The position numbers and the translations under genes were made by a program. From the NCBI RefSeq assembly GCF_017301735.1, contig NZ_CP071090.1:7678001-7742000 (forward strand): a stretch of DNA of 64,000 nucleotides. The letters run 5' to 3'. This DNA comes from Pyxidicoccus parkwaysis. GTDB taxonomy: Bacteria > Myxococcota > Myxococcia > Myxococcales > Myxococcaceae. The notes under the pieces are model-generated. The model made no database searches and was not told the DNA's origin. It was given only the letters and a program-made list of their open reading frames with translations. Each line of letters starts with the position of its first letter. The stretch's first letter is position 1. Below, in pieces: positions 15,504-59,686 of the stretch.

Positions 15504-15823
15504 GCAGGGCTCGGCTCGGCGGCCCTGTCCGCTACGCGCGCGAGGGGCGCGGGGTCTTCCACCTGCCGGTGGCCCGGCCCTGGACATGGGCCGTCACCCA
15601 CCACGGCGCCGACATCCTCTGCTTCAGCGAGGTGGACAACGACGGGCGCCCGCACGCCGTCCACCCGCCGAAGACCCTCCTCGGGTGCGGAGTGAGTCGT
15701 GCTCCGTGGCGGAATGTTATCGGACTGAAAGGCCGAAGCAATTGGTCAAAGCATCCCATCCAGACATTTGGTCCGCGTACGCGAGTCGCAGTAGGCTTAC
15801 CCAAGAAAGAGGCTACCGCTTAG
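15500..15823 (+). CDS. Small phage protein, C terminus probably altered by cargo insertion
   Basis: 107 residues from GTG 15500, translationally coupled to the preceding gene. The first 65 or so residues (ending AVHPPKTLLG) have phage-like GC-rich codons. The rest lies in AT-richer DNA and reads unnaturally, so the 3' end was probably replaced when the FRG/DUF262 insert arrived. Function unknown. Confidence 0.5.
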   Translation: MSRARLGGPVRYAREGRGVFHLPVARPWTWAVTHHGADILCFSEVDNDGRPHAVHPPKTLLGCGVSRAPWRNVIGLKGRSNWSKHPIQTFGPRTRVAVGLPKKEATA

Positions 15824-15846
15824 TTACGCACCACAACGGACGAGTC

Positions 15847-17687: not shown

Positions 17688-17816
17688 TTAATTTTTTGGA
17701 GCCATATCGCATGCAGTGAAAGACTCCACGCAACCTATTTCAGCGGACCGCTGGCGCGACGGCGGGGAGTGTGTTCGATAGGCGGCCTTCGTGTGTCTTC
17801 TCAAGGCGGTGCAGAC

Positions 17817-18824: not shown

Positions 18825-18963
18825 ACCGAGAGGCTGGTACCAACGGGCGGTGTGGCCCACAAGCAACTCAGTGTGTCGTTCAGCCGGTGGTCTGGCATTC
18901 ACGAAGAGGTCATCGAGCGTTGGGGGTTGCTGGCACGGCAGGCGGCCCGTACTTGGTCATGCC

Positions 18964-19911: not shown

Positions 19912-20720
19912 GACGCCCCCAGAGGTTGGAACGTCGTGAACTCGCCCGACGACTTGTAGCCCTGAATCGACTCCGTCGACTTCGGCACCTGCTTGAGGAC
20001 TCCGTCCTCCACCTTGAAGCGCACCTCGTTACCGCTGGCCGGGTCATTCGCGAAGAAGAGGTTGCCCTCCTTGCGGGTCAGGCACACCCAGTGGTCAGTG
20101 CCGAGGGTGCCGCCGCTGCCACCCGGCTTGTAGTCCACACCGAGCACCACGGGCCGGCCTGCCTCCAGTTCCTTCGTCACGGTGTCCACGCTCCACGCCG
20201 TCGTCTTCGACACCGCGAAGTCCTTCTCCGTGGCGCTGCCGGCCGCGCCCCACACCAGCAGGTTGCCGACGTAGCCGCCGTGGGTGTCGAGGTGCTCGTC
20301 CAGCGCGCCTGGCGTGAGCGTTTCACCAGAGAGCTTGGAGATGGCCATCGCCATGGAGCTCACCGCGCAACCGCGCTCCTTCAGCGTATGGGCTCCTTCC
20401 CCGGCCCCCATCAACCTGCTGCCCCACTCCGCGTCCCCCTGCCTGTACATGGGCGTCCCGTCCGTGGACGTCGGGAAGGGCGTGCCGTCCGCCCGCGCGA
20501 AGCTGGCAGAGGGCGTGGGCGTCGGCGGGACACCGCCCATGAGGGCCAGCGTCGCCGCGGAGTAGCTCGGCCCGGAGGGCGCGCCCTGCGGCGGCGGGGC
20601 ATACGACGCCGGGTAGCGGCAGACGTACTCTTCCACCTGGTTGCCACTGCCCGTCTCGGTGCGGCTGGTGGTGGCAGAGCTGGAGGGCGTCACCGACGAT
20701 GTGGCCGTCGAGCTCTCCAT
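19908..20720 (-). CDS. Papain-like C39-family peptidase domain protein
   Basis: 270 residues from ATG 20720 (GAAGG upstream; the frame is open further up but looks non-coding). The first 90 residues are Ser/Thr/Pro-rich. The peptidase domain shows the Cys box KERGCAVSSMAMA, a His box GTDHWVCLTR and a following Asn/Asp (FFANDPASGN), the pattern of C39_2 cysteine peptidases. No signal peptide is evident. It is coupled to the TPR gene and divergent from the DUF4157 gene at 20994, suggesting a three-gene accessory cassette. Confidence 0.75.
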   Translation of the reverse strand: MESSTATSSVTPSSSATTSRTETGSGNQVEEYVCRYPASYAPPPQGAPSGPSYSAATLALMGGVPPTPTPSASFARADGTPFPTSTDGTPMYRQGDAEWGSRLMGAGEGAHTLKERGCAVSSMAMAISKLSGETLTPGALDEHLDTHGGYVGNLLVWGAAGSATEKDFAVSKTTAWSVDTVTKELEAGRPVVLGVDYKPGGSGGTLGTDHWVCLTRKEGNLFFANDPASGNEVRFKVEDGVLKQVPKSTESIQGYKSSGEFTTFQPLGAS

Positions 20721-20993
20721 GGAGGTGGTGCCTTCGGGGAAGCAGGCCGGTGCCTGCGAGCTGCGAATGGGGTCCACGGGGTGCTCCGGGTTGAGGTTTC
20801 CGGGAAGCGCTGCAGGCTGGCCGCCAACGCCAGGGCGAGTCCCCTCCGTGGGTTGCACCGTCGGCGCCGTCCAGGTGCGGCACGTCCGTCTCGGGGCGCG
20901 GACGGCACCCCGCCGGCGGCTCACGTGTAGACGGGTGTCGCGTCCGGGCACGTGCGCTGCACTCGCGCGCGGGCACCTCTTCTGGGAGTCACC

Positions 20994-21995: not shown

Positions 21996-22152
21996 GCACG
22001 GGCTTCAGGAATGCGCGTGCGGTCCTTCCCTGATCTGACGGTTGTGACACCTGTGGGCCGTCCAAATAACGCCGTCTGTCCCTGCTGTTGTCGCCCGTGC
22101 GTTGTCGAAAGTTTCGTGGCAACCAAAACACAAATCTCTCGCCTTTTGTGAC

Positions 22153-23556
22153 CTAGCGTCCTGTGTCGAATGCCTTCACGTTTCTGATGGAGATGATTCC
22201 AGGCCCTGGCTTTGCGCAGCCCTCATTTATGCGAATGCCAAGAATGCTAAAGGATGCGCCTGGAATCCCCTTGAAGTCAAAATCAATTGACGCCGCGTGC
22301 CACTTCCCATCTCCAACGTGCTCGCTCGGCACGACGAGTCGCTTCCGGTACGGCGAGAATGCATTATCTGGATCTTCTTCACTGTCGGCGCCAACCTCAA
22401 GGGTCCGGCCGCCGGCTGTTCTCTGCATGGGTATTGCATAAACGAACAAGTTGGAATGCTTTGCGCGAGAATAATTCGCAAGATATTCAAACTCAAATCG
22501 ACCGGCCAGCACTGAGAGCGCCTTGTTCGCCCCAACGAGTTCTGTCCCTTTGGCAAAGATCTCCAACTGAGGCGCCCCGTCTGGCGCCTGCGAATGGACG
22601 TTAATTCGCTCTGAGAACCCTTGCGCTGTCGAGTACAGCTCCCAGTCGACATATCGATTGGGGGTCTCATTTGCATCATACGCAAGTAGCCGGTCATTAC
22701 CCGCATGCGGAGTCTCCGGCATGACCGGCAGGAGCGTTCGCAGAAAGGGCGCCAGATCACTGTAGTTCTCGCCATAACTAACTACTCGGATGCGGTCGCT
22801 CGAATGTTGCTGCGCCAGCGCGGCGTAGTCTCGCTGAAGACACAGTCGATAATGGGTGCGTTCAGATTCTGCAAATACAGCGCGGGCCCAATCCAGGAGC
22901 GCGCCAAAGTTTGGATCAGCCAACCCCTCTCCACAGCCAATAAAAACAACCGTGCTTCTGAGTAATATGCTTCTTAGCACCAGTTGTGCATGCCGGTCTG
23001 AGGTTATTTTCTCATAGTCGCGGACACCTAGGATGACCGACTCTGGATCTCTCCAGAACCCATGGAGATGAATGACGCCCGTTTCCGTCTTGTTTAATAC
23101 GTGTTCAATGTCGCCGACCTGTCGCCATGTGACCGCCGGCAACTTCGTTGCTTCCTCGATAAGTCCGTCGTAATTTGTTGTTGCCAGCTGTCCGGGCAGT
23201 GAGCTGATCGCTTCGAGCACTTCCTTGTACTCGATGGACAGTCCCGAGAAGGAGTTGCGAAGCCAGCTGCGGTAGTCTCCTCCTTTGGGTGCTTTCAGCT
23301 TTCGGGTTACGAACTCTGCTGCGGCAAGTAGCGAATCAAGATCCCCAGAGCGAATTAGGGTTTGAAATGCCCCGACAACCGCCTCGCCGATGCTTGCTAC
23401 CTTCTTGGCCTCATTGATTCCACTTTCGATAAGGCCTGTCCATGATGCACATGGGTTGCCCTTTGTTGCTCCAACGGAAACTCCAGAGCCAACAACGAAG
23501 AGCGCATCACCGTCTCGAACACGCAGGCGCAGGTCATCAACAGGTGTGGTCGACAT
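22153..23556 (-). CDS. SIR2-like domain protein with C-terminal beta-sandwich region, candidate defence gene
   Basis: 467 residues. The N-terminal half is SIR2-like: DALFVVGSGVSVGATKG, PGQLATTNYDGLIEEATK, TGVIHLHGFW and a VFIGCG strand, the pattern of NAD-binding defence SIR2 proteins that deplete NAD+. From about residue 290 a second region (NRYVDWELYSTAQG to ISIRNVKAFDTGR) looks like a beta-sandwich of carbohydrate-binding type, which may sense the trigger. It is a stand-alone leftward gene in visibly AT-richer DNA than its neighbours. Thoeris ThsA is related in its first domain only; no TIR partner is adjacent. Confidence 0.78.
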   Translation of the reverse strand: MSTTPVDDLRLRVRDGDALFVVGSGVSVGATKGNPCASWTGLIESGINEAKKVASIGEAVVGAFQTLIRSGDLDSLLAAAEFVTRKLKAPKGGDYRSWLRNSFSGLSIEYKEVLEAISSLPGQLATTNYDGLIEEATKLPAVTWRQVGDIEHVLNKTETGVIHLHGFWRDPESVILGVRDYEKITSDRHAQLVLRSILLRSTVVFIGCGEGLADPNFGALLDWARAVFAESERTHYRLCLQRDYAALAQQHSSDRIRVVSYGENYSDLAPFLRTLLPVMPETPHAGNDRLLAYDANETPNRYVDWELYSTAQGFSERINVHSQAPDGAPQLEIFAKGTELVGANKALSVLAGRFEFEYLANYSRAKHSNLFVYAIPMQRTAGGRTLEVGADSEEDPDNAFSPYRKRLVVPSEHVGDGKWHAASIDFDFKGIPGASFSILGIRINEGCAKPGPGIISIRNVKAFDTGR

Positions 23557-23612
23557 GTCGTCCTCTCAGCTATGACGGGCCTTGAGTCTATCTGGGCTGC
23601 TCGAAGCGCACC

Positions 23613-24260
23613 TCACTCGGCCCATGTCTCTTCGCGACGCGCGGCATCGGCGAGCTCGGCCACGTCCTCCGCGCTGAGCTTCACCGGCTGCCCTAGGAGA
23701 CCCGGCACCAGCTCGGTGTGGTGGATGACGGCCACGTTCTGTGGCTGCTGGTTCACGACAGGCTTCTGGTGGGCCATGACGAGAAGCCCCTGCACCCAGA
23801 GCCGGTGACGGCGCGTCGCAGCCAGCAGGCACCGGCGAACACGCTGGGCCTCGTACTCGAGCTTCTCCACGTAGTCCCTGGGGCGCCCGTTCACCATGAC
23901 GTTGTCGCCGCCCACCCACACCTTGCCGCTCAACGCCTTGGTGTTGATGACGAAGACGCCGGGCGGACCGATGACGAGATGGTCCAGGTTTGCGCCACGG
24001 CTCCCCACGCGCACGTCGTGCTCGACGTGCCAGCCGTGAGGCCGGATCTGCTCCAGCAGCGCCCCCACACGCTCTTCGCCGTCCGCGCCGAGCCGCCACG
24101 CACGCTCGTCGGTGTGGAGGTCGAAGAGGCGCGTGAAGAACGTCTTGATGGGCGCGGCGTCTGCCAGCTCCTGTTGCTTGTCCCTCGCACTCTGTCCAGG
24201 ACGGCGCCCGGTGCGAGTGGCCACTGGCTCGGGTCGCGGCTCACGCTTCCTGAAGAACAT
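23613..24260 (-). CDS. NERD-domain protein
   Basis: 215 residues from ATG 24260, chosen because GGAGGGGGG precedes it. The NERD (nuclease-related) domain runs from about residue 60: GADGEERVGALLEQIRPHGW, then GANLDHLVIGPPGVFVINTK and GKVWVGGDNVMVNG. The acidic and Lys residues around NLDHLVIG...VINTK are those of the nuclease-like fold. NERD proteins occur in DNA-processing and defence settings. Codon use is GC-rich like the phage, unlike the adjacent SIR2 gene. Confidence 0.75.
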   Translation of the reverse strand: MFFRKREPRPEPVATRTGRRPGQSARDKQQELADAAPIKTFFTRLFDLHTDERAWRLGADGEERVGALLEQIRPHGWHVEHDVRVGSRGANLDHLVIGPPGVFVINTKALSGKVWVGGDNVMVNGRPRDYVEKLEYEAQRVRRCLLAATRRHRLWVQGLLVMAHQKPVVNQQPQNVAVIHHTELVPGLLGQPVKLSAEDVAELADAARREETWAE

Positions 24261-24401
24261 GCCCCCCTCCACGTGCGGCATTCAGATACAGCAGGAGCAG
24301 ACGGTAGCGCGTGAGGCCTGGTGCCGTGCAGCGGGTCCGGTCGGCCCCGGAGTGCCGCCGGCATGCGCGGCGCGCCCCTTCTCTCGCGTGGAGGTGCCTA
24401 C

Positions 24402-32150: not shown

Positions 32151-33663
32151 GGCACAAGCCGTCACCTCGAAGGAGGACCCGCTCGCGGGGCTGCCCATCA
32201 TCCGCCCCGAGACGCACGGCCGCTACTCGCTGGTGGACCGGGTGGCGCTAGCGCTGCGCGCACGCTACGGCGCGCTGGGCGGAGTGGCCGCGCCGCTGGG
32301 CCTGACGCAGCAGGAGCTGCTGGCGCTCTACTACAACCCGGAGCTGAGCCTCCGGCCGGCGCAGCAGCCGCCGGACATGCTCGACGAGGCGCTGGCCCGC
32401 TGGCGCGTCTGGTTCCTGCTGGGTGGGCGCGGCGCGGGGAAGACGCACGCGGGGGCCACCTCCGTCATCCGCGAGGCGCGCGCGGACGCGGAGGCACGCA
32501 TCCTCATCGTCGGCCCGACGTACACGGAGATTCAGAAGAACCAGCTCGAGGGGCCCAGCGGCATCATCACCCTCGCCCCGCCCTGGTTCAAACCGGAACA
32601 CCGCAAGTCGAAGAAGCAGCTCATCTTCCCCAACGGCGTGGTCGCCGACTACCTGCCGGCGGCGGACGCGGACAAGTTCCGCGGCTACGGCTACACCTTC
32701 GAGTGGCTGGATGAGGTGGTGGCCTGGAAGAAGGACCCGGTGGGCGTCTTCAAGGAGTGCGGCCGCGTGGGACGTGGCACTTCCAGCCGCATGCGCCGCC
32801 TGGGACTCTCCAGCCGGAAGGTCATCACCACCACGCCCGCGCCCACGGAGCTCTTCCGGGAGATTCTGCGCGACAGGGAAGGCCTCGTCCTCTCTCGCTC
32901 TAGCACGCTGGACAACTCCACCAACCTGGACCCGGCGTACATCCGCCAGGCGCGCGCGGCCGCGCACACCACGGAGGGGCGGCGCGAGTATCTGGGCGAA
33001 CTCGTCTTCGACCTGGACCCGGCCCTCTTCCGGAAGGTGGACTGGAACCGCACGCGCCTCCACCCGAAGAAGCGGCCGGAGGTGTTCGACTTTATCGTCA
33101 TCAGCGTGGACCCGGCCACGGGCGAGAAGAAGTCGGCGGACATGCACGGCATCGTCGCGGTGGGTGTGCGCCAGGAGGAGGACGGGCTCGACCACGCGTA
33201 CGTCCTCGCGGACCTCTCGTTGCGCAGCCCCGAGCCGAGCGCATGGGCGAAGAAGGCGGTGGAGGCGCTGCGCGCCTGGGAGCCCTTCGCGAAGAAGGAC
33301 GCGCGCGGCCGGCTGCAGGCGTGGATTTTCGCCGAGACGAACACGGGCGGCAGCATGGTGAAGCACACCATCCGCGGCATCGCGAAGGTGAAGGTGAAGA
33401 CGGAGCGGGCCCGGCAGTCGAAGGCCGAGCGCGCGGCGCCCGTGTCTATGTGGGCGGAGGCGGGCTACGTCCACCTGGTGGGCAAGCACGAGAAGCTCGA
33501 GGAGCAGCTCGCGAGCTTCACCGGCCAGGAGGGTGGCCACGCACGAGACGACCGCGTGGACGCCATGGTGTGGCCCATTTTCAAGTACGTGGTGAAGAAG
33601 CGGAAGAACGAGGGCGCGGCCGAGCATGCCAATGCGAGCGAGTTCGAAGAAGAGATTGAGTGA
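32140..33663 (+). CDS. Phage terminase large subunit
   Basis: 507-residue packaging motor and nuclease. Walker A GGRGAGKT at about 95-102, Walker B YTFEWLDEV near 190, and the nuclease centre starting IVISVDPATGEKKSAD at about 327, with the closing acidic group RDDRVDAMVWP near 474. The ATG at 32140 overlaps the small-subunit stop. The 3' end of this gene is the place where the TIR-like cargo was inserted. A degenerate copy of its last 25 codons lies at about 35060. Confidence 0.93.
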   Translation: MSRKAQAVTSKEDPLAGLPIIRPETHGRYSLVDRVALALRARYGALGGVAAPLGLTQQELLALYYNPELSLRPAQQPPDMLDEALARWRVWFLLGGRGAGKTHAGATSVIREARADAEARILIVGPTYTEIQKNQLEGPSGIITLAPPWFKPEHRKSKKQLIFPNGVVADYLPAADADKFRGYGYTFEWLDEVVAWKKDPVGVFKECGRVGRGTSSRMRRLGLSSRKVITTTPAPTELFREILRDREGLVLSRSSTLDNSTNLDPAYIRQARAAAHTTEGRREYLGELVFDLDPALFRKVDWNRTRLHPKKRPEVFDFIVISVDPATGEKKSADMHGIVAVGVRQEEDGLDHAYVLADLSLRSPEPSAWAKKAVEALRAWEPFAKKDARGRLQAWIFAETNTGGSMVKHTIRGIAKVKVKTERARQSKAERAAPVSMWAEAGYVHLVGKHEKLEEQLASFTGQEGGHARDDRVDAMVWPIFKYVVKKRKNEGAAEHANASEFEEEIE

Positions 33664-33803
33664 CGCTCTACGCATCCGCAACCGTATCCACCCACCCTCG
33701 AACCTATCGCAGGTAGTTACGTACTACCCCATCAGCAAAATTCCTCCTATGTTCGCGTGCATTAGGCATCTTGCGCTGACAGGTGGCCGGTGGGGTAAAT
33801 GTA

Positions 33804-34940
33804 ATGAACAAAATAGTTGATGACCTTCTCGCGGTCGAGCATCGCTGCAGTCAAGGCGCGGCGCTAATTGAGGCCCCCCATATCGCAGACGGCATCGTAG
33901 CCATAAGAGAGGCGGCAGACGACGTCGGGCGTTCGTGGTCAGGCTCTTGGTTGGGGTACCGAGCCCGAGTCTATTACGCCGAGCTACAGCCTCCACCGCC
34001 AGGGGCAAATTTCAGTCCGGCGCACGGGCTCGACAAAAACTCGCTCGGGAGCAAAACTCGCGGAGACTGGCGGGAATATGAACACGCCCACGTCTCAACT
34101 GAGGTTCTCAGGCGCGCCGGCAATCCAGACCTTGATGCGATAAAAGACGCAAGCGATCAGGCGAAGGCGACATTTGAGACATGCAAAGAGGAACTCCAAT
34201 CAATACTCGATGCATATATCTCGATCGAAAAGGACGAGAGGCTGCAGACGATACGCGGCGATCTGGCAAAACTGGAGTCTTCGATTCCGGCGAAGACTTT
34301 CAAGGATGCCCACATGCCAAAGGGCGAGTTTCCCATCAGCGACATGCGTTTGCTGGACGACCTGAGAATTATCGTTCCTCCCCATCTATCCGTTAAGTTC
34401 TCGATCATGTCGCTTGAGTCGCCCCGCTCATCATTGTTGCAGGTGGCAAAACTTGCGCGACAAGCACGACTTTACATGGAAAGGCGGATAGGCATGAAGG
34501 GGAAGAGTCGTGCACAAGTGGAGGGAACTATCTTTATCGGTCACGGGCGCTCGTCCGACTGGCGTGACCTCAAAGACCTCGTTCGAGAGAATCTTGGGCT
34601 AGTGCCCGATGAGTTCAACTTGCAGTCTGCCGCAGGTCTGACGACGGCCCAAAGATTGGAGGAGATGCTTGACTCTGCTGTCTTTGCGTTCTTGGTGATG
34701 ACGGCCGAAGACGAACATGCGGACAATATCCTGCATGCTCGTGAAAATGTCATACACGAAGTGGGCTTATTCCAAGGCCGCCTTGGGTTTCGCCGTGCCA
34801 TTGTTCTCCTGGAGGAGGGGTGTAAGGAGTTCTCGAATATCCAAGGGCTTGGACAGATTCGTTTTACAAAGGGGAGTCTCAAGGCCAAGAGTGAAGAAAT
34901 TCGTCAAGTGCTTAAGCGGGAAGGGGTATTGAAGTCGTAG
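33804..34940 (+). CDS. TIR-like (predicted nucleotide-binding) domain protein, copy 1
   Basis: 378 residues. The C-terminal domain is of the TIR-like nucleotide-binding type (Pfam PF10137): TIFIGHGRSSDWRDLKDLV, AGLTTAQRLEEMLDSAVFAF, VMTAEDEHADN, ARENVIHEVGLFQGRLGF then RAIVLLEEGC. In defence systems such domains bind or hydrolyse NAD-type substrates. The N-terminal 230 residues are unassigned but conserved between both copies (IGRSWSG-type segment, RVYYAEL). AT-rich codon use marks it as cargo between terL and the portal gene. Confidence 0.82.
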   Translation: MNKIVDDLLAVEHRCSQGAALIEAPHIADGIVAIREAADDVGRSWSGSWLGYRARVYYAELQPPPPGANFSPAHGLDKNSLGSKTRGDWREYEHAHVSTEVLRRAGNPDLDAIKDASDQAKATFETCKEELQSILDAYISIEKDERLQTIRGDLAKLESSIPAKTFKDAHMPKGEFPISDMRLLDDLRIIVPPHLSVKFSIMSLESPRSSLLQVAKLARQARLYMERRIGMKGKSRAQVEGTIFIGHGRSSDWRDLKDLVRENLGLVPDEFNLQSAAGLTTAQRLEEMLDSAVFAFLVMTAEDEHADNILHARENVIHEVGLFQGRLGFRRAIVLLEEGCKEFSNIQGLGQIRFTKGSLKAKSEEIRQVLKREGVLKS

Positions 34941-35058
34941 GCAAGAATGGGGTGTTAGATTGACGTCTCGTCTATCGGTACAGAGCCGGCCATGCCTGCG
35001 GCGCCTTCGGCCCTGGGCCCTCCGTCCACCAATTGAGACTCAATCGAGCGCAGCATTC

Positions 35059-35127
35059 TTATGGCCCATCTTCAAGCATGTCGTGAGGAAGTTGCAGAGT
35101 GCAGGCGCTGCCGAGCGGACTGACTCC
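35059..35127 (+). pseudogene. Degenerate copy of the terL 3' end
   Basis: The frame reads LWPIFKHVVRKLQSAGAAER, against VWPIFKYVVKKRKNEGAAEH at the true terL end, with matching DNA over about 60 bp. It lies between the two TIR-like genes. The rest of 34941-35279 shows no gene. It suggests a second insertion event, or a duplication of a terL-tail plus cargo unit. Confidence 0.7.
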
Positions 35128-35279
35128 ACTCGCAATCAGGGTAGAACAGGACGGATTACGTCAAGGGGTGCAGTCACGCATCGCAAGGCTCTGCCACGTC
35201 CAGCAATCCGACGCCCCCACAAGCATCTGCCCTCCTGGTAGACTTCCTGGCATCAGAATTCCAAGCGCAGGGAGGGCAT

Positions 35280-36413
35280 CTGGATACCATCGTTGATGAA
35301 TTACTTCGCATTGAGCGCCGCAGTAATCGAGGCGCTGCTCTGCTTGATGCGGACGAGTTCAAGAGCAGCATCGACGCCATCAAACGCGCGGCACATGAAA
35401 TCGGGCGTTCCTGGTCTGGCGCATGGATTGGCTATCATTCTCGCGTCTACTACGCCGACTTTACGCCCCCGCCCGAAGAGGCTCATTTTAGCCCTGAATT
35501 TGGATTCCGCGACAGCTTTCACGGCGGCGGGACCGTCGGCGCATGGAAGGAATATCAAGCCATAAGTGTGGTCCAGGAAGTACGGAAGCGCGCCGGAGAC
35601 CCAGACTTTCCAGCGCTCAGCGAGACGAGTGACAAGGCGAAGAAAGTTTTTGCTGACTGCAAAGAGCGCCTACAGGTTGTGTTTGACGCACTCCTTTCGG
35701 GGAGTCAGGATAGGCCTCTAGAAGAGCTGCGCACCGAGCTAATGGGCTTGGAGGCGTGCATTCCGTTTCCCAAGCTTGTGCATGACGCCATGCCCAAAGG
35801 CATGTTTGCATCACGCGACACACGCGCACTCCAGGAGGGCGTTCAAGCACCACCGCATCTCCAGATGAATTTCAATGCGATTGCACTGGAATCTCCAAGA
35901 AGTTCCCTGGAGGAAGTCGCGCGGATTGCTCGGCAAGCTCGCCGATATCTTGAAATGAGGATGAACTTGAAAGGAAAGACAGTGGCACGTGCGGATGGCA
36001 CCATCTTCATCGGACACGGCCACTCATCTGCATGGCGTGATCTGAAGGATTTCATCAAGGATAGGCTTGAGTTGGTTCCAGACGAATTCAACCTTGAGTC
36101 CGCCGCAGGACTGACTACCGCCCAGCGACTGGAGGAAATGCTCGACTCCGCCAGCTTCGCCTTCTTGGTGATGACCGCCGAAGACGAGCATGCCGACAAC
36201 ACCCTGCATGCTCGTGAAAATGTGATTCATGAAGTGGGGCTGTTTCAAGGACGCCTTGGATTTCGCCGTGCAATCGTCATGCTGGAGGAAGGATGTAAAG
36301 AATTCTCAAATATCCAGGGGCTCGGCCAGATTCGTTTTCCTCGGGGGAACATCAAAGCCAAGAGCGAGGAGATCCGCCAAGTCCTTGAACGAGAGGGGCT
36401 CCTGAAAAAGTAG
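35280..36413 (+). CDS. TIR-like (predicted nucleotide-binding) domain protein, copy 2, apparent CTG start
   Basis: 377 residues, a paralogue of the gene at 33804 over its whole length. The N-terminal parts align as LDTIVDELLRIERR against MNKIVDDLLAVEHR, and the C-terminal TIR-like domain keeps TIFIGHGHSSAWRDLKD, AGLTTAQRLEEMLDSASFAF and NVIHEVGLFQGRLGF. No ATG, GTG or TTG occurs in the frame upstream back to the stop at 35142. CTG 35280 aligns exactly with the ATG of copy 1 and has GGGAGG five bases upstream. It may start at CTG, or the start was lost. A start at GTG 35568 would drop 96 residues. Confidence 0.78.
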   Translation: MDTIVDELLRIERRSNRGAALLDADEFKSSIDAIKRAAHEIGRSWSGAWIGYHSRVYYADFTPPPEEAHFSPEFGFRDSFHGGGTVGAWKEYQAISVVQEVRKRAGDPDFPALSETSDKAKKVFADCKERLQVVFDALLSGSQDRPLEELRTELMGLEACIPFPKLVHDAMPKGMFASRDTRALQEGVQAPPHLQMNFNAIALESPRSSLEEVARIARQARRYLEMRMNLKGKTVARADGTIFIGHGHSSAWRDLKDFIKDRLELVPDEFNLESAAGLTTAQRLEEMLDSASFAFLVMTAEDEHADNTLHARENVIHEVGLFQGRLGFRRAIVMLEEGCKEFSNIQGLGQIRFPRGNIKAKSEEIRQVLEREGLLKK

Positions 36414-36453
36414 CTGGATGAGTTCGCACCACGCGGCGCCCCTTCTCGGGACC

Positions 36454-43893: not shown

Positions 43894-46470
43894 ATGTCCG
43901 GCGGTCTGCGCGTAGGTGACTTGTACCTGGCCGTCACGGCCAGCATCGCTCCCGCGCTCAAGTCACTGGGCGAGCTCGTGGAGTCCGTGGAGAAGGCTGC
44001 GCGGCAAGTAAAGGCAGCGGCCAACGACATCGGCGAAATCGGCGCGGTGGTGGCGGCCGGAATTGCCGGCGCCGTGGCCGCCGCCGCCCAGTCCAATGCG
44101 GACATGAAAGAGGAGGTGGAGCACCTCACCGACTTGCTCTACACGCTCGCCGCCGAGTTGGGCGACCTCTTCGCGCCCGTGGTGAAGCAACTCACCGAGT
44201 TCGTAGAGCGGCTGGTCGCCACCTTCCAGCACCTCTCACCGGAGACAAAGCAGGCCGGGGCAGACATGGCCACGTGGGTGGCCGGCACAGGCCTCGCCAT
44301 CGGCGCCTTGGGCAAGCTGGCCGGTGTCGTGGAAGCCCTCAGCGGCGGCATGGGCCTGCTCATCAAGGGCTTGGGCGCGCTGTCGAAGTCCACGAGCCTC
44401 GCCTCCCTCGGTGCCACGCTGGCGGGCCTCGCCGCGCCCGTGGCCGCCGTGGCCGCGGCGGTGGCTGCCCTGACGCTGCTGGCCGGTGCCGTCTACGGCG
44501 CGTGGACGGACTCCTCCACCGGACTGCGTGAGTCCGTGCTCTCCATTCTCGCCAGCGTGGGCCAGGTGGCCGCCCGGGTGTGGGAGGTGCTGAAGAGCAC
44601 CTTCGAGGCGCTCGGCGCCGTCATCCACGCCATCGTCCTCGACTCGCTCAACACCATGGCGTGGTTGGTGAGGGAAACGGCCAAGAAGCTGATGCCGCTG
44701 GCGGACGTGCTGGGCATGACGCGCCTCCAGGCGGGGTTGAAGGCGGCGGCGGGGCTGACGGGTGAGGACCTGATGAAGGCCCTGGAAGCCGGCGGCAGCT
44801 ACGTGAAGGACCAGGTGGCGGCCGGCGCCAAGGCGCTCGGCAACGCGGTCTCCTCGCTCGGCAGCACCATCTACGACGCGGGAAAGGCTGTGGGACAGGG
44901 CGTGGCGGACGGCTTCTCCTCGGCCCTCGCGGGCACGAAGAAGATGTTCGCGGACATGGGGCTGTCGGGCCTCATCGAGTCCCTCATGGCGATGATGCCG
45001 AGCCTGCCCACCCTCGCCGACGCGAAGGCCAGCGTCCGGGAGAAGGACGAGGACAAGGGCATCGACGTCTCGGGCCCGGCGCATCGTGAGCTGGACGCCA
45101 TGGTGAAGGATGTCCAGGCGCTCGCCGCGCATGGCGGCACGGCCACGCGCGCCCTCACCCACGCCATGGAGGACAAGGCCCAGGCGCTCGCGCGCGCAAT
45201 GGCGGAGGCCGCCGAGGCCGCGCGACAGGCCATTGCCCAGGCACGCGAGGCGCTGAAGCAGCGCTTCACCAGCGCCTTCGGCCAGCTCACGGACATGGTG
45301 GACATGTTCAGCCAGGGCACCCTTGCGGCCGGCGGCAACCCGCTGGGCGGCGTGGCCGCCGTCGTGGGCGAGTTGCTCACGCAGTCCGAGGGCTTCCGGA
45401 CGCTGATGGAGATGGTCTCCTCCATCATCCAGCGGGTGGCGGACGCGCTGGGAAAGATTCTGGAGCCGCTCCAGCCGCTGCTCGGCGCCGTCTCACTCAT
45501 CGTCGATGCACTGATGAGCGCCATCACCCCCGTCTTCGAGCTGCTGGGCGAGGCGCTCAAGCCCCTCGTCCCGCCACTCGTCATCGTCGGTCAGCTCCTC
45601 CAGGGCCTCGCGCCGCTGCTGGAAGTCCTGATGAAAGCCTTCTCCGTCGTCATGATGCCGCTGCAGCTCCTCGGCGGGCCGGTGCTGAAGGGCCTCTTCG
45701 AGGTGCTGAAGTTCGTCTCCACCGTCGTGCTGTACGTGGCGATGGCCATTGGTTCGGTGTGGAACGCGGTCATCTCCGCCATCCAGGCGGTGATTCGGGC
45801 AATCAGCAGCGTCATCGACTGGACGGGTTTCGACGGCCTCAACCGGCTCGCGCGCAGCATCGGCCGGATGAAGGTGGACACGGACTCCATGTCCGACGCC
45901 CTGCGCGAGCTCGCCGACACCACCTGGGACAGCGCGGACGCCACCGCGGAGAACGCGGCGGAGAATTTGAAGAACGCGGACGCACTGCGCCGGGCAAACG
46001 AGGCCCTCACCAACGTGCCTGCCGCATGGAAGGTAGCGCTGCGTCGCTTCCAGGTGCAGGACTCGCAGGAAGGTCCAATCGTGGAGCCGACACCGACGCC
46101 CGGCACCGGCGGCGGCACTGGCATCCCTGACGTCGGCGTGGGTGGCGGCAGCGGCGGCAACCCGGTGGAGTCCCGCTTCCGCGAGACGTTGCACGAGCTC
46201 CGGGACATGTACCCGGAGCGCAACGGAGTCCAAGCCATGCTGGACCCGCTCCGAAACGCGCTGGATTCCATCCTCCACCGTCGCGCTCCGGAGCCGCCGA
46301 CGACTCCGGAGGACGAGAAGACCGTCGCCACGTCCTTCAACATCACCATCAACGGCACGGACATCTCCGAGGCCATGACCGAGGCGCAGCGCTTCGCGGA
46401 GCGGCAGCGCAGCCTCCTCGGCCTGCGCAGTTCCGGCCGCACCGCCCGCCTCACGCCGAAGTTCGGCTGA
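43894..46470 (+). CDS. Tape measure protein
   Basis: 858 residues. Long helical protein that sets tail length. It is Ala/Leu/Val-rich with several hydrophobic segments (for example VAAVAAAVAALTLLAGAVYG near 195 and the 540-640 region) and coiled-coil stretches (ARAMAEAAEAARQAIAQARE). The C terminus has a Gly/Pro linker and a charged end. It follows the chaperone frameshift gene by 3 bp. The length suggests a tail of ordinary siphovirus size. Confidence 0.92.
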   Translation: MSGGLRVGDLYLAVTASIAPALKSLGELVESVEKAARQVKAAANDIGEIGAVVAAGIAGAVAAAAQSNADMKEEVEHLTDLLYTLAAELGDLFAPVVKQLTEFVERLVATFQHLSPETKQAGADMATWVAGTGLAIGALGKLAGVVEALSGGMGLLIKGLGALSKSTSLASLGATLAGLAAPVAAVAAAVAALTLLAGAVYGAWTDSSTGLRESVLSILASVGQVAARVWEVLKSTFEALGAVIHAIVLDSLNTMAWLVRETAKKLMPLADVLGMTRLQAGLKAAAGLTGEDLMKALEAGGSYVKDQVAAGAKALGNAVSSLGSTIYDAGKAVGQGVADGFSSALAGTKKMFADMGLSGLIESLMAMMPSLPTLADAKASVREKDEDKGIDVSGPAHRELDAMVKDVQALAAHGGTATRALTHAMEDKAQALARAMAEAAEAARQAIAQAREALKQRFTSAFGQLTDMVDMFSQGTLAAGGNPLGGVAAVVGELLTQSEGFRTLMEMVSSIIQRVADALGKILEPLQPLLGAVSLIVDALMSAITPVFELLGEALKPLVPPLVIVGQLLQGLAPLLEVLMKAFSVVMMPLQLLGGPVLKGLFEVLKFVSTVVLYVAMAIGSVWNAVISAIQAVIRAISSVIDWTGFDGLNRLARSIGRMKVDTDSMSDALRELADTTWDSADATAENAAENLKNADALRRANEALTNVPAAWKVALRRFQVQDSQEGPIVEPTPTPGTGGGTGIPDVGVGGGSGGNPVESRFRETLHELRDMYPERNGVQAMLDPLRNALDSILHRRAPEPPTTPEDEKTVATSFNITINGTDISEAMTEAQRFAERQRSLLGLRSSGRTARLTPKFG

Positions 46471-51275: not shown

Positions 51276-52199
51276 CTACGCCCCTGCCCCGGCGCCGAGC
51301 CCCAGCTCGAGCTGGGGGAGTGCCGGGGACACGGGGCGGACCTGCCGGGCCGCCGCGGTACCCGTACGGCGCACGCTCCCCGCGCGGGCAGGTGCAGCGT
51401 CGTTGACGGCGAGCAGCTCGCGCAGGCGGCGCAAGCCCTTGGCGCGCAGCTCGCGGACGCGAGCCTGGGAGAGGTGGAGCTGCACGGCCAGCGTCCTCTC
51501 CGTGGTAGCCCTGCCTTCGGGCTGGCCCACGCCGACCGTGGCGGCGACTGCCAGCCGCTGCAGGCGCGGCAGCGCGTGGAGGGCGGCCATGGCGCGGGCC
51601 TGGAGGGCGGCTCGCTCCGGCCCCTCCGAGGCGGCAGCGAGGCCGAGCAGCTCCTCTACCGGAAGGGTGGCCTGGACAGTGCCGTCGCCCAGCGCGTGCG
51701 CCGTAGCCGCCTCAACGCCCTGGGCGGCGAGCGCGTCCGCCACCGACGTCTGGGCCTGCCGGGCCTCACGCTTCGCGCGGCGCAGGGCCTTGCGCGCATG
51801 GTCGGTAAGGTAGACGGGGCAGCGCTCGCGGGTGGCGGCAAGCACCATGGCCTGCCGCCCCAACGTCATGGCGTAAGCCGGAAATGCGCTGCGGCCCGTG
51901 CCCGCCCGTCCCGGGACGAAGGGCCTCTCGCGCTGGCGCTCCAGCACAGCCACCAGCCCCTCGTGGACGAGGTCCTCGCGCGAGACGGCCCACTCCCGGG
52001 CGACGGCGCGGGCGACGCGCACCAAGTACGGGCGCACCAGGGCGGCGACGCGGGCCTCGGTGCGCCCGTACTCCGGGCTGTTCCGGGGCAGCTCGCGCAG
52101 CAGATGGAGCAACTCCTCCAGCTCCACTTCGGGCGGCACCTGCGCGGTGGCCTTCGGGCGCAGGGCGGGGCGGCTGGGCTTCGGGGCGGCGCACGTCAT
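51276..52199 (-). CDS. Sigma-70-like factor
   Basis: 307 residues. Region 2-like part: YLVRVARAVAREWAVSREDL then VHEGLVAVLERQRERPF and FPAYAMTLGRQAMV. Regions 3-4-like part: LPRLQRLAVAATVGVGQPEG, TLAVQLHLSQARVRELRAKG (helix-turn-helix), LRRLREL. The protein may direct host RNA polymerase to late promoters. It is one of two such genes in the right arm. The start overlaps the RusA stop (ATGA). Confidence 0.75.
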   Translation of the reverse strand: MTCAAPKPSRPALRPKATAQVPPEVELEELLHLLRELPRNSPEYGRTEARVAALVRPYLVRVARAVAREWAVSREDLVHEGLVAVLERQRERPFVPGRAGTGRSAFPAYAMTLGRQAMVLAATRERCPVYLTDHARKALRRAKREARQAQTSVADALAAQGVEAATAHALGDGTVQATLPVEELLGLAAASEGPERAALQARAMAALHALPRLQRLAVAATVGVGQPEGRATTERTLAVQLHLSQARVRELRAKGLRRLRELLAVNDAAPARAGSVRRTGTAAARQVRPVSPALPQLELGLGAGAGA

Positions 52200-52762
52200 G
52201 GGGTGTCCCTCCGCGTGGGCAGACGCAGGCCCGGGGTGACTCGGACATGGCTGCGCCGCCTCTCTGCCCGGTTTCTGTTTCTCGTCAACCGGGCCTTCCG
52301 GGCGCGCTCGGCCCTCGCCTCGCGGTGGGCGTCCGCCTCCTCTCTGGTGGCGAAGCGCTCCGCAGTGGCGTGGAGCTCCACGCGGGGGTGGTCCGCGTCG
52401 TCGTCCCGGTCCGCGTGGATGCGCACCACCTGGTCGTCATCCAGCCAGGCCACGCCGTTGAGGGCGTCGTTGAGCACCTTGAGGGAGTTGTCGAGGTCCC
52501 CCACCCTGCGAGGGCGGTACACGGTGAGGGTGAGGTGGACGCGGCCGAAAAGAGGCTGCACGCGGGCGACGGCGGCGACGCGGGCCACCTGGGACTTGTA
52601 CGCCTTGGCGTCATCCGAGGGCACCAACCCGCGGCCTCGCGCGGGCTTCCAGTACGTGTTGGCGCTGGGGGGGTATGGCAGGACGAGGCGCACCTCGACG
52701 GGAGACGCGGTGCCTCCGGGGGAGGTGGATGCGGGGGCGGGATGAGGGGGCGGGCAGGGCAT
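52196..52762 (-). CDS. rusA: RusA-family Holliday junction resolvase
   Basis: 188 residues. RusA motifs: LPYPPSANTYWKPARGRG, VHLTLTVYRPRRVGDLDNSL with catalytic Asp pair, then KVLNDALNGVAWLDDDQVVR with further Asp. The C-terminal Arg-rich end is longer than usual. The enzyme resolves recombination intermediates, alongside Bet. The 52774-52797 hairpin stands just before its ATG. Confidence 0.9.
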   Translation of the reverse strand: MPCPPPHPAPASTSPGGTASPVEVRLVLPYPPSANTYWKPARGRGLVPSDDAKAYKSQVARVAAVARVQPLFGRVHLTLTVYRPRRVGDLDNSLKVLNDALNGVAWLDDDQVVRIHADRDDDADHPRVELHATAERFATREEADAHREARAERARKARLTRNRNRAERRRSHVRVTPGLRLPTRRDTP

Positions 52763-53183
52763 CGGGGCTCCATGCCCCTGCGCGTGGACGCAGGGGCGCT
52801 ATACTGGCGCTGCCCAGCGGTACTCCCCGTTCCCTGGCCTATACGGGCTCGGCCGTCATCCCCGGCCGGGCCCGTCGTCTATGAAGAGAAGGGGCGCCAG
52901 TACGCCGAAGTGCCGGACGAAGACGCTCGGGCATAGGGCTTTGACTGATTAGGTGCCCGGTCCTCCTAAGACCTTCGCCAACTGCGCGCCCGGTACCGAG
53001 CGCATACTGCGCCGGATTCGCCCGGTTGCTGCAATCAAGACGCACACGTGTCGACCTGAACAGGCATGCAGATTGCGGATCGGCCGAAAATGATAGTTTA
53101 ACAGAGCTACAATCTGCTACCGCCATTAGTTCACGACATCCTCAGAGGCAGATCGCATTCCAGCGCACCCCCTTGAGGGCTCA
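52763..53183. other. Intergenic region between rusA and the cargo genes
   Basis: No gene supported. It contains a hairpin (GCCCCTGCG/CGCAGGGGC, 52774-52797) upstream of rusA, a GCGCCCCTTCT element at 52887-52897 (minus strand), and from about 53000 AT-rich DNA leading into the membrane-protein gene, with a possible -10 TACAAT near 53107. Confidence 0.45.
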
Positions 53184-54167
53184 ATGGCAGAATATGACAC
53201 AGAGACAATTAGGCTGCTAATCTGGATTGCCTCTTTTGCTTTGCTGGTGTTGACCGCGCTGTATTTCTTCATTGGTCGATACTACAAGCCGTCAAACGCA
53301 TATGATATTTCGAATCTACTCATGGGGATATGCGCAAGCCTAATCCCCGTTCCGCTCCTATATCTCCTGACAATCTTCTTCTCAGCAACAATCGGGAGTG
53401 CGCCAGATCCGGTTGATGCCGACTACAGGAGTTGCATTTCATACGCACGAAAGAAGGGGCGCCCATATGTGATTCAATCCGCAACCATGCTGGTTCGGGT
53501 TTCAAATAAAGACGAATCAACAAGGCTGGCTTCTTATCGAATTACCTATGCCCTCCGAGCGCTTCGAACAATCCACGACAATGAAGATACGTTCTGGGAG
53601 GAGTACACTCCGCAAGCTCCGCATGCGAAGGCGACTGCCTGGAGTGGCCCGCTTGATGAACAGCGCTCGGAGGAGAGTTGGGACACATTCAATAGTTATT
53701 CTGTTAGGTTCAAGGCCAACGAAGGCGAGATCAAGACGGTAACCACGGGCATTGAGCAGGAGTATGCACTCCCCAGTGGAACGCGAACTGCTGGAAACGG
53801 GAAAGTTCAACTGCAAGCAGGGGAGGATTACTTTGGATACTTCAACAAAGATGGCGTCGAGGCAGATGCTATATGCGACCTCACCATGGTAATCGAATCA
53901 TCAACACTGCCCATTTCGCCAGCAACGCCAGAGTTGGTTGAAGTGGGCAGGGATAACGACTCTTCGCAGGTAACAAGTCTTAGCGAAAAAACAGGCGCAA
54001 CACCCGGCTCGCAGTATCGACTGGCGTCCGGATCTGTATCCAGAACAAGAGGCGGCTATAGGACAATCTCCGGGCGATGGAAGAATGTCTTCGGGGGACA
54101 GCGGGTTGGATTGATCTACAAATTGGAGCCATCGCAAGACAATGCTAAGAATACTGTGGGTTACTAG
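53184..54167 (+). CDS. Two-helix membrane protein with beta-rich soluble domain, cargo gene 1
   Basis: 327 residues. Two membrane helices at about 8-30 (LLIWIASFALLVLTALYFFI) and 45-70 (LLMGICASLIPVPLLYLLTI) precede a soluble region of about 250 residues with strand pattern (VIQSATMLVRVSNKDESTRL, DYFGYFNKDGVEADAICDLT). No family recognised. GAGGG stands 4 bp before the ATG. It overlaps the ATP-grasp gene by 26 bp. Both are plus-strand inside an otherwise minus-strand arm and clearly AT-richer, so they were acquired together. Confidence 0.75.
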   Translation: MAEYDTETIRLLIWIASFALLVLTALYFFIGRYYKPSNAYDISNLLMGICASLIPVPLLYLLTIFFSATIGSAPDPVDADYRSCISYARKKGRPYVIQSATMLVRVSNKDESTRLASYRITYALRALRTIHDNEDTFWEEYTPQAPHAKATAWSGPLDEQRSEESWDTFNSYSVRFKANEGEIKTVTTGIEQEYALPSGTRTAGNGKVQLQAGEDYFGYFNKDGVEADAICDLTMVIESSTLPISPATPELVEVGRDNDSSQVTSLSEKTGATPGSQYRLASGSVSRTRGGYRTISGRWKNVFGGQRVGLIYKLEPSQDNAKNTVGY

Positions 54168-55116
54168 CGACTGGGGGGTGTTGGAGCATGCCGACGACAC
54201 CTCGCTAAGGCTGATGCAGGCCTCGCTTCCACTCTGCGAGAATTACTGGTGTGAAGCCAAGTCAATCGGATTTATCAGCAACGAAATATCGATCAAGGCG
54301 CATCGTGTTCTCGAAATAAAATCAAGACGCATGGTCGATGATTTCGCATTTGGACCTGCGGCGACGTTCCGCCCGAGAGACTTCACGCACGTCCTGTATC
54401 GCGATGATCCTCCTGTAGATCTGCCCTACATTCAACGACTTCAATTGTTCAACGCGGCGACTGGACACGGTGACCAGCGCGGCACCGAATTCATCAATCC
54501 GGCGGAAATTATTCTTACCTCGACGTCGAAATTGGAAGTGTCACTCATTCCAGGAAATCGCCTTCGCAATGTTGTCTCCTGCGATTGGCGAGAAATCAAA
54601 GATTTCGGCATGGCAATGGGGTCCACCGTCATAAAGCCCATGCATGGCCTTAGAGGCCTTGGTGTTGTACGTATCCACTGGAGGCTGGACCTATTGGACG
54701 TTGTTGAATCTCAAGTTCGAGCGGCGACCCATGATTTCTGCCAACCCATAATTGTCCAAGAGCTTGCTGATGCCCCCTGTGAAGAACTCCGCGTATGGTT
54801 TGTTGACGGCCTGCCTGTCGCGGCAGCCATCAAAAAGCGGAGCGGGAATGGTGCTGCCTTAGAACCGCCCACTCCGAGAGCATTGCTTGAATGCAACGCG
54901 AGTGTGGTGGGCCAACATCTGCGTTCGCGCGGAATTCGCTTTGTTGCCGTTGATTTTATCGGAGACGCCATTGTTGATGTCAACTTTGTGAGCCCTGGCT
55001 TGATTGTTGAGGCCGAGCTGGCTCTTGGTAGGGACATCGCTACGGGGGTGATGGCTGCCTTGATTGGACAGGGCCGCGAGGCCACTGCAAGCCGTCTGTC
55101 CTGCGCTAAAGCCTGA
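54142..55116 (+). CDS. GshB/RimK-like ATP-grasp ligase, cargo gene 2
   Basis: 324 residues. Close to the glutathione synthetase GshB plan: YRDDPPVDLPYIQRLQLFNA, TSTSKLEVSLIPGNRL, GSTVIKPMHGLRGLGVVRIH (ATP-binding loop), VQELADAPCEELRVWFVDGL, and RFVAVDFIGDAIVDVNFVSP (metal site Asp/Asn). The enzyme should join a carboxylate to an amine with ATP. There is no gshA-like partner; instead it is fused by overlap to a membrane protein gene. A role in modifying a peptide, lipid or metabolite for defence is possible but unproven. Confidence 0.85.
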   Translation: MLRILWVTSDWGVLEHADDTSLRLMQASLPLCENYWCEAKSIGFISNEISIKAHRVLEIKSRRMVDDFAFGPAATFRPRDFTHVLYRDDPPVDLPYIQRLQLFNAATGHGDQRGTEFINPAEIILTSTSKLEVSLIPGNRLRNVVSCDWREIKDFGMAMGSTVIKPMHGLRGLGVVRIHWRLDLLDVVESQVRAATHDFCQPIIVQELADAPCEELRVWFVDGLPVAAAIKKRSGNGAALEPPTPRALLECNASVVGQHLRSRGIRFVAVDFIGDAIVDVNFVSPGLIVEAELALGRDIATGVMAALIGQGREATASRLSCAKA

Positions 55117-55239
55117 TTTGCAATGCGGCGACGGCGCAAGCCAATGTAGCAATGGCAGCCGTCACCCCATCGTCTGCAAGCCCGTATTCTGATTGGCCCG
55201 GGGGCACGTCGTTCGGGCCCCTTCGAGTGACGCAGGCGT

Positions 55240-56517
55240 TCATGTGGAGGCTTCCTCGTCTTCAGGGACGGCGAGGCGGATGCCGGCGTGGCCGAGTTGC
55301 GCGGCGTAAGCGTCGAGAAGCGCGCGGCAGGTTTCCTCCACCCAGTCTCTCGCAAATCTGTCACGCAGGGCCACCACCACACACCCGTCCTCCACGGCTA
55401 CAGGTCGCGCGTGCTGAAGTTGCTCGGCGACGTAGCGCCTTCCGTCGCTTCGTAGGGCGGCCAGCACCTGCGCCCACGCGCGTGCAGCCTCTGTCCCCTC
55501 GGGCACTCCCTCCAGGCACATGGCCGCGCCCGGCTCCTCGGGCGAAGGTGCCGCTTCGGGCTCAGGGTCCAGGCTCCACGCACCGCTGAGTAGTTTCTCG
55601 GCCACCTCGTACCCGTCCGACGTCCGGCCGCGCAGCACACGCACGACGTTGGCGCGCACGCGACTCTTCAGCTCGCCGCGGCACACCGGGGAGCGCGGCA
55701 CCAGGGAGAAAATGCGGCGCCACTCCTCGAGCGGACGAGCTTCCAGCGCGGCGAGGGCGTCCGCCAGCAGTTCCTTCGAGGTGCGTTCTCCCCATGCCGG
55801 GAAGTCGTGCGCGGCCACCAGCTCATTCCACGCCTCGCGGAGTGCGCGCACGTCGGGCGGGAGGGTGGCCGGAGTGCGGTGCTCGCGCAGCCCGTCACGC
55901 TGGACGTCACGCACACCGCGCGCGGCCACCGTGACAACCGCCAGCGCGCCCCTCTTCTCCGAGGCAGAGGGAGGGGGAGGAGGGGGAGAAAATGGCTTCG
56001 GTGTCACGCTGGTCTGCGCGACGTCACGCTGAGCGTCACGCAGGCGCTGCACCTGCTTGCGCAGCCTCGCAGCCTCGCGCTTTCGCTTCGCTTTTTCCTC
56101 CTCTCCTTTCCTCTCCTCCTCCTGTGTCACGCTGGACGTCACACTGCCGGGCCGCGCGTCACGCTGGACCTGCCCGACGGGGGGCGCCTGGGTGACGGCC
56201 TGGGCAAGAGCTGCCAGTGCCTGAGCCTGGAGGTGGGCCAACTCCTCTGCGCGCTGGGCCCGGGCTTCGGCACGCGCCAGGGCTTCGAGAAGCTCCTCCA
56301 CCTGAGCGCGCGAGCACGTGCAGGGCTGGGCAGGGGCAGTCCATCCCGAGCGCGCCTCGCGCAGGCGTTGAGAGGCCTCGACGCCCTGGGGAGAGGGCAG
56401 CACCTGGGCGGCCAGCGCCTCGGGCACCACCTGTCCGGAGCGCAGGCGCACATACCCGGGCGGCACGTCGTCAGGGCTCTCGGTGGGTGCCGCGTCCTCG
56501 CGGCGCGCGCACGTCAT
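55240..56517 (-). CDS. Phage replication protein with DnaA-N-like C-terminal domain
   Basis: 425 residues from ATG 56517, overlapping the upstream stop (ATGA). The N-terminal part has a coiled coil rich in Ala/Arg/Glu (EELLEALARAEARAQRAEEL). The middle is basic and contains the iteron-coded residues. A helical winged-helix-like part follows (LREAWNELVAAHDFPAWGER, RPLEEWRRIFSLVPRSP). The last 85 residues (WAQVLAALRSDGRRYVAEQL, DGCVVVALRDRFARDWVEET) resemble DnaA domain I. Probable origin-binding initiator; eight copies of a CAGCGTGAC-like repeat lie within the gene. Confidence 0.7.
   Translation of the reverse strand: MTCARREDAAPTESPDDVPPGYVRLRSGQVVPEALAAQVLPSPQGVEASQRLREARSGWTAPAQPCTCSRAQVEELLEALARAEARAQRAEELAHLQAQALAALAQAVTQAPPVGQVQRDARPGSVTSSVTQEEERKGEEEKAKRKREAARLRKQVQRLRDAQRDVAQTSVTPKPFSPPPPPPSASEKRGALAVVTVAARGVRDVQRDGLREHRTPATLPPDVRALREAWNELVAAHDFPAWGERTSKELLADALAALEARPLEEWRRIFSLVPRSPVCRGELKSRVRANVVRVLRGRTSDGYEVAEKLLSGAWSLDPEPEAAPSPEEPGAAMCLEGVPEGTEAARAWAQVLAALRSDGRRYVAEQLQHARPVAVEDGCVVVALRDRFARDWVEETCRALLDAYAAQLGHAGIRLAVPEDEEAST
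55894..56166 (-). repeat. Iteron cluster, candidate replication origin inside the initiator gene
   Basis: Eight copies of a 9-bp element, consensus CAGCGTGAC on the minus strand, at 55894, 55906, 56003, 56023, 56035, 56126, 56138 and 56158 (lowest base). Five are exact. They are read in two protein frames (QRD-like and SVT-like), so the DNA rather than the protein is conserved. A purine-rich, A-rich tract lies between the repeats on the minus strand (56083-56123). Confidence 0.7.
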
Positions 56518-56750
56518 GGTGCATCCTCTCGAGTGTCGGACTCGGTGGTTTCGGGCTCGCGCTCGTAGATTCCCCCGGGCAGGCGGCGCCACGTGGCCCG
56601 GTACCCGGGGATGGCCACTTCCACGCGCAGCGGCCGGCTGGCGGTGCCGTCCAGCACGCGGAAGCCAAACCGGCACATCAGGTGGTGCAGCTCGCACGTG
56701 GCACGGCCCGGGCCGCCTCTCTCCTGCTGCTTGTCCTCGGGGCAGCTCAC
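56514..56750 (-). CDS. Small right-arm phage protein
   Basis: 78 residues from GTG 56750, overlapping the previous stop (GTGA). MSCPEDKQQERGGPGRATCE then CRFGFRVLDGTASRPLRVEV and an acidic end. Possible small metal-binding protein. Coupled to the replication gene after it. Confidence 0.55.
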   Translation of the reverse strand: MSCPEDKQQERGGPGRATCELHHLMCRFGFRVLDGTASRPLRVEVAIPGYRATWRRLPGGIYEREPETTESDTREDAP

Positions 56751-59331: not shown

Positions 59332-59605
59332 TGGGCACCTCCCCGGCGAGAGGCACTCAGCGAGGCCAGCGCGGAAGCGGCGGCGTCCAGCGGGCAATGG
59401 GCGGACGCGCTGCCCTGGCCGAAGTCAGCCTCCCAGCCGTCAGTGAGGCGACGGAAGCGCAACTCGAACGAGTCTGGGAGCCCGTCGTCGGTTGCCTGCC
59501 GGTCATGCGGCGGGACGCCAACTGGAAGGGGACTGGAAAGGGACTCGGCGGGGGTTCTCTCGCCCAGTGGGGCGGAGTCAAAATCCCCAATGAAAACAGG
59601 CAGTT
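59328..59605 (-). other. 3' end of intP, separated from int by integration
   Basis: This frame has no stop from the att core to TGA 59330-59328 and no start codon of its own. Joined through the core to the gene at 7232-8788, it gives a 627-residue IntP whose last 92 residues begin ELPVFIGDFDSAPLGER and end SLSASRRGGAQ. In the prophage it is a silent fragment. A similar change of C terminus was described for the Mx8 integrase (IntP to IntR), recalled from memory. Confidence 0.85.
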
Positions 59606-59654
59606 CGGCGAGCGCCCCAGGCAGGGCTCGAACCTGCGACCCCCGGCTTAGAAG
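59606..59654 (-). repeat. attR core within tRNA-Arg(TCT)
   Basis: Identical to attL (7183-7231). It supplies the anticodon-loop-to-3'-end half of the tRNA so the gene stays whole after integration. The crossover is within these 49 bp. Confidence 0.95.
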
Positions 59655-59686
59655 GCCGGTGCTCTATCCAGCTGAGCTACTGGAGC
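59613..59686 (-). tRNA. tRNA-Arg (anticodon TCT), prophage attachment site
   Basis: Minus strand: acceptor GCTCCAG/CTGGGGC (one G-U), anticodon stem CCGGC/GCCGG with loop CTTCTAA (TCT, reads AGA), T-arm GCAGG-TTCGAGC-CCTGC, discriminator G. The 5' half is host DNA and the 3' half is phage att DNA. Confidence 0.95.

Follow-up and report, generated by a model that had tools for sequence, protein, structure and literature searches.

Two overlapping genes, here called ORF A and ORF B, lie within the window that was analysed, a stretch of 64,000 nucleotides from Pyxidicoccus parkwaysis. A sequence-only reading had picked out their products, a membrane protein and an ATP-grasp ligase, as the best candidate for an undescribed system, which raises the question of whether the two genes form one unit and what such a unit might do. 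As judged from sequence, ORF A and ORF B are probably best regarded as a two-gene accessory (moron) operon of a temperate myxophage that most likely serves as an anti-phage or superinfection-immunity module, a reading to which a probability of about 0.5 is assigned.

The gene pair and its prophage slot

The pair, the borders of its slot and the ends of the element that carries it are as follows.

53184-54167, plus strand: ORF A, 327 aa, with two membrane helices at the N-terminus followed by a domain whose family is very rare and unnamed
54142-55116, plus strand: ORF B, 324 aa, GshB-like ATP-grasp ligase with an altered substrate loop
54142-54167, plus strand: frame overlap of ORF A and ORF B, 26 bp, touching only the C-terminal tail of ORF A
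52199-52762, minus strand: rusA-like Holliday-junction resolvase gene (phrog_34, 3.7e-27), left border of the slot
55240-56697, minus strand: gene at the right border of the slot, replication-like, 485 aa, its only match a weak one to DnaA_N below threshold
52895-56275, no strand: exchanged block without homology to the sister prophage (L055), comprising ORF A, ORF B and all but the 5' third of the replication-like gene
7174-7234, no strand: candidate attL, 61-bp repeat, 95%
59597-59657, no strand: candidate attR, 61-bp repeat, overlapping a tRNA-Arg gene (59612-59686)

The sequence-only reading described two AT-rich genes that overlap by 26 bp and run in opposite direction inside the right arm, and each part of this description held. 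The overlap is exact, and the start of ORF B on which it depends is real because homology of ORF B begins at residue 3. The GC content of ORF A and ORF B (0.504 and 0.536, respectively) is far below that of rusA (0.723) and the replication-like gene (0.712), both of which are on the opposite strand. Homologues exist for both frames, and the chance of a 324-codon open frame at the local composition is about 5e-7 per start. No sigma-70 promoter was found on the plus strand, and a search of Rfam gave no match. The pair lies between the att-like repeats, which bound a prophage of ~52 kb with terminase and RusA genes inside. ARAGORN also places a tRNA-Arg at 44413-44507 on the plus strand, inside a long structural ORF (43894-46470), which is probably a false call.

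A sister prophage in the same genome (C1:1.995-2.046 Mb, positions 1995000-2046000; L055-L057) has a backbone that is mostly 80-95% identical to that of the prophage in the window. DNA identity around the slot is 90% up to position 52894 and 80% from position 56276. Between these points the sister prophage has a low-GC ORF of its own (208 aa), and the 3' part of its replication-like gene is of another version. Homology to a related phage in genome G022 (L058) ends at both of these positions too, to within 2 bp, and the slot in that phage is occupied by a gene of 50% GC that is on the same strand as ORF A and ORF B are here and encodes a two-helix coiled-coil protein. The slot in genome G024 is nearly empty, with the stop of the replication-like gene at 7801 and the rusA ORF at 7849, about 47 bp apart. 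Homologues of the replication-like gene were found at L055, L058, L060, L061 and L078-L082, and the content of the slot differs or is absent in the related phages at L055, L058 and L060. The neighbours upstream of other rusA homologues vary as well and include a TIR protein, two PIN-like ORFs (L070, recognized by eye) and genes of unknown function. Two proteins from related phages are as follows.

L058, 14615-15979, minus strand: G022 coiled-coil protein with two membrane helices, only weak ZorA/LeoBC matches
L066, 5009-5863 (G136), minus strand: TIR_2 protein (3.8e-14) upstream of a rusA homologue

Since the site holds other genes or almost nothing in the sister prophage, G022 and G024, the pair is exchangeable cargo, and the comparison supports the conclusion that ORF A and ORF B are one AT-rich, opposite-strand, exchangeable (moron) unit of the prophage.

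Properties of the two proteins

ORF B resembles GshB (PF02951 plus PF02955; 1gsa for the E. coli enzyme) over its full length, and its two-domain plan is apparent from matches to the Pfam families GSH-S_ATP (9.3e-15) and GSH-S_N (3.1e-8) as well as from an alignment with E. coli GshB in which homology extends from residue 3 to beyond residue 290. In a site alignment of ORF B with E. coli GshB and three myxobacterial GshBs, the ATP lysines (K130 and K165) are present, as is a metal site consisting of D271, D279 and N281, where D279 stands for E281 of the E. coli enzyme. The RxDPP motif of GshB is kept (R87, D89-P91), reading RDDPP in ORF B versus RKDPP in GshB. Both domains and these residues agree with the sequence-only reading, in which the gene was taken for an intact ligase of the glutathione-synthetase plan, and ORF B looks catalytically intact. 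Unlike GshB, however, ORF B has the substrate-side loop SGNGAALEPP, with a deletion, where most canonical enzymes have RGNLAAGG, and it has SPG in place of SPT. Its identity to GshB is 24-26%, its scores are 98.6 bits against a cut-off of 272 (NF003573) and 88.8 bits against a cut-off of 299 (TIGR01380), and in a tree with 24 myxobacterial GshBs its branch is very long and falls outside them all. The canonical GshB of the host, which scores 360.7 bits, passes both cut-offs. These features suggest that ORF B, an ATP-grasp ligase of the GshB plan, is probably active and uses a substrate other than that of GshB. Judged by the models tested, it is neither a glutathione synthase nor a graspetide ligase.

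Several more specific identities for ORF B were considered and rejected. A glutathione synthase proper is contradicted by the low equivalog scores, by the changes in the loop and by the host having a GshB of its own, while recent capture of the host gshB is contradicted by the long branch outside the myxobacterial enzymes. ATP-grasp ligases of the R2K clade have a proposed role in phage-host conflict (PMC4431377, PMC7824862), and ORF B is like them in being an ATP-grasp enzyme that forms peptide bonds and is distributed sporadically on mobile DNA. ORF B differs from them in having a full GSH-S_N domain, and its match to R2K_3 (E 0.17; 12.5 bits versus 26.3) is below the cut-off. Nor was a phage-borne relative of gshB found, as the only matches among phages are Acinetobacter records in which the match lies beside murG, murC, ddlB and ftsQ and hence in bacterial DNA. 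One such record, CAKLQH020000013.1 (L090), is named Acinetobacter phage MD-2021a and carries gshB-murG-murC-ddlB-ftsQ, that is, DNA of a bacterial chromosome. ORF B was not found in viral contigs. In a search of 100 relatives, no genome gave more than one GshB-like match, and no second ORF B-like copy turned up.

The two membrane helices proposed for ORF A correspond to two hydrophobic segments, at about residues 8-30 and 44-70, which are followed by a domain of ~250 aa. ORF A matches no family in Pfam, PHROG, NCBIfam or PADLOC, and a profile of its domain has no match in the PDB. Neither ORF A nor its relatives were found in plasmids, and ORF A was likewise not found in phages or viral contigs. 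Among 195 Myxococcota genomes the domain has just two other occurrences, each in AT-rich or mobile-element-flanked DNA of a myxobacterium. One is in a 307-aa protein of Corallococcus praedator (G142; L031/L034) that is 35% identical to ORF A, carries the domain behind what appears to be a single membrane helix and is encoded beside an IS3-type transposase gene. The other, with 28% identity (L004), is the C-terminal part of a 453-aa lipoprotein of genome G037 that has an LSSC lipobox and an M48-like HELGH motif. Its gene is located in an AT-rich island, one gene away from that of a PDC-S59 candidate defence ATPase (5.4e-80).

L033, 5407-9402: G037 AT-rich island encoding the PDC-S59 ATPase, a secreted 249-aa protein and the M48-like lipoprotein with the ORF A domain

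A general link between PDC-S59 and the ORF A domain was not found in six further loci.

The topology of ORF A was assessed from its charge pattern, its cysteines and the lipoprotein relative rather than from a predictor or a model. Basic residues (R32/K35) occupy the loop between the helices, and the stretch that follows helix 2 is acidic. C84 and C231 recur in the C. praedator protein, and the G037 lipoprotein has neither. This weak but consistent pattern suggests that the domain is exported and possibly contains one disulphide bond. Given the charge pattern, the possible disulphide pair and the exported relative, the ORF A domain is probably periplasmic. The membrane would then separate it from the ligase, which argues against ORF A being a cytosolic receptor for the product of ORF B.

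Defence context and proposed mechanism

Elsewhere in the prophage, three other AT-rich stretches (15695-20943, 21996-23610 and 33626-36436) have no homology to the sister prophage at the same positions. Genes in and next to these islands are as follows.

15424-18824, plus strand: island 1 genes encoding FRG (PDC-S15, 1.4e-49), GmrSD_N (NsnA, 1.2e-28) and HNH (mREase_IV, 4.5e-24) proteins
22153-23556, minus strand: SIR2_2 protein, ThsA-like match (1.1e-15), in an island that the sister prophage lacks
23613-24281, minus strand: NERD-domain protein, adjoining the SIR2_2 gene in DNA common to the sister prophage
33783-34940 and 35568-36413, plus strand: two tandem CAP12/Pycsar-type TIR proteins, encoded immediately behind the terminase large subunit in an island missing from the sister prophage

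The tandem TIR genes contain a 300-nt direct repeat of 73% identity. The FRG, GmrSD_N, HNH, SIR2 and two TIR genes all have matches in PADLOC. Because other islands of the same prophage carry defence genes, defence is the leading hypothesis for ORF A and ORF B, an argument by association and context. The slot need not serve defence only, since several of its genes are of unknown function.

P2/P4-type prophage hotspots are cargo slots with anti-phage genes. Defence islands have been described as prophage cargo with anti-phage genes (PMC10121019). The slot in the window resembles such sites in having variable AT-rich genes on the opposite strand between conserved phage genes, an empty site in a relative and known defence genes in other slots. 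It differs from them in belonging to a family of myxophages and in that its cargo, ORF A and ORF B, is in no defence library tested. The latter result accords with the sequence-only reading, to which no defence system with this pair was known, as neither gene is in the PADLOC library of known defence proteins.

ORF A and ORF B are probably co-produced by translational coupling through the overlap. ORF B would function in the cytosol and join an amine to a carboxylate substrate in a reaction other than that of gamma-glutamylcysteine with glycine, and ORF A would be held in the inner membrane by its helices, its domain probably facing the periplasm. ORF A could then be an envelope effector or sensor that blocks genome entry or damages the membrane on infection, and a product or modification made by ORF B might arm or restrain it. 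This part of the scheme is a working model only and is rather unlikely to be right as drawn. The broader proposal of a two-gene anti-phage system with new chemistry, in which a GshB-like amide ligase controls a membrane-anchored envelope effector, is tentative and somewhat doubtful. The pair is a credible candidate, one that rests on a single instance and for which no conserved linkage was found.

Alternative readings

The sequence-only reading had suggested a mechanism akin to CBASS, in which the ligase makes a signal or modifies a peptide that the membrane protein senses. In such CBASS-like or two-component signalling, ORF B would make a small peptide-like signal upon infection, and a cytosolic domain of ORF A would bind the signal and permeabilise the membrane. 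The gene order, the overlap and the two-helix plan are like those of pairs formed by a cyclase and a two-helix effector, and the defence context of the prophage also fits. The likeness to CBASS and Pycsar is in the two-gene layout with an enzyme and a membrane protein, whereas the pair has no cyclase, SAVED-type or nucleotide-signal receptor family (PADLOC, Pfam), its ligase would form amide bonds, and its topology is probably unfavourable, with charge pattern, cysteine pair and lipoprotein relative pointing to a periplasmic ORF A domain. The sequence-only reading had also looked to neighbour pairs of the two families in other genomes, and none emerged: neither the C. praedator nor the G037 relative of ORF A has an ATP-grasp gene beside it, the searched relatives gave no second ligase of the ORF B type, and the pair was seen once, with no co-conservation of both genes in several genomes, among the 195 Myxococcota genomes, viral contigs, phages and plasmids. 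Signalling of this kind is therefore quite unlikely. That the relatives of ORF A occur without a ligase, and that the slot holds single genes in many phages, would fit instead with two independent cargo genes that are adjacent by chance, overlap through compaction and may each act alone. Against such independence, the same-strand overlap with zero intergenic space suggests co-expression and joint transfer, and chance adjacency is accorded a small probability.

Alternatively, the pair could bring about metabolic conversion of the lysogen, with ORF B supplying the host with a compound of the glutathione-like or gamma-glutamyl kind and ORF A, an envelope protein, playing a supporting part or an unrelated one. 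The GshB fold, ATP lysines and metal site kept in ORF B are consistent with this possibility, but the host already possesses a canonical GshB, the RGNLAAGG-type loop is shortened and degenerate in ORF B, the branch of ORF B is very long and falls outside the myxobacterial GshBs, and the remaining variable islands of the prophage carry defence genes; conversion is on balance unlikely. Biosynthesis of a RiPP (graspetide) with ORF B as the peptide ligase has almost no probability. A small ORF with a TTG start (53026-53220) does lie near this ATP-grasp gene, but the N-terminal domain of ORF B is GSH-S_N rather than a pre-ATP-grasp domain of the graspetide (MvdC/MvdD) type, the slot contains no precursor-like ORF with a convincing start, and ORF A is neither a precursor nor a transporter by any library.

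Should the anti-phage reading of ORF A and ORF B prove correct and the pair give protection from phages, bacterial immunity would gain an ATP-grasp amide-ligase chemistry like that of glutathione synthetase, together with a new envelope domain. Comparison of the slot across sister prophages also provides a ready list of low-GC cargo genes from the myxobacteria, a lineage that is poorly sampled for phage defence. The sister prophage has low-GC cargo of its own, consisting of a TIR-like ORF of 168 aa and genes for a two-helix protein (324 aa) and a lipoprotein (263 aa) in addition to the 208-aa ORF in its slot.
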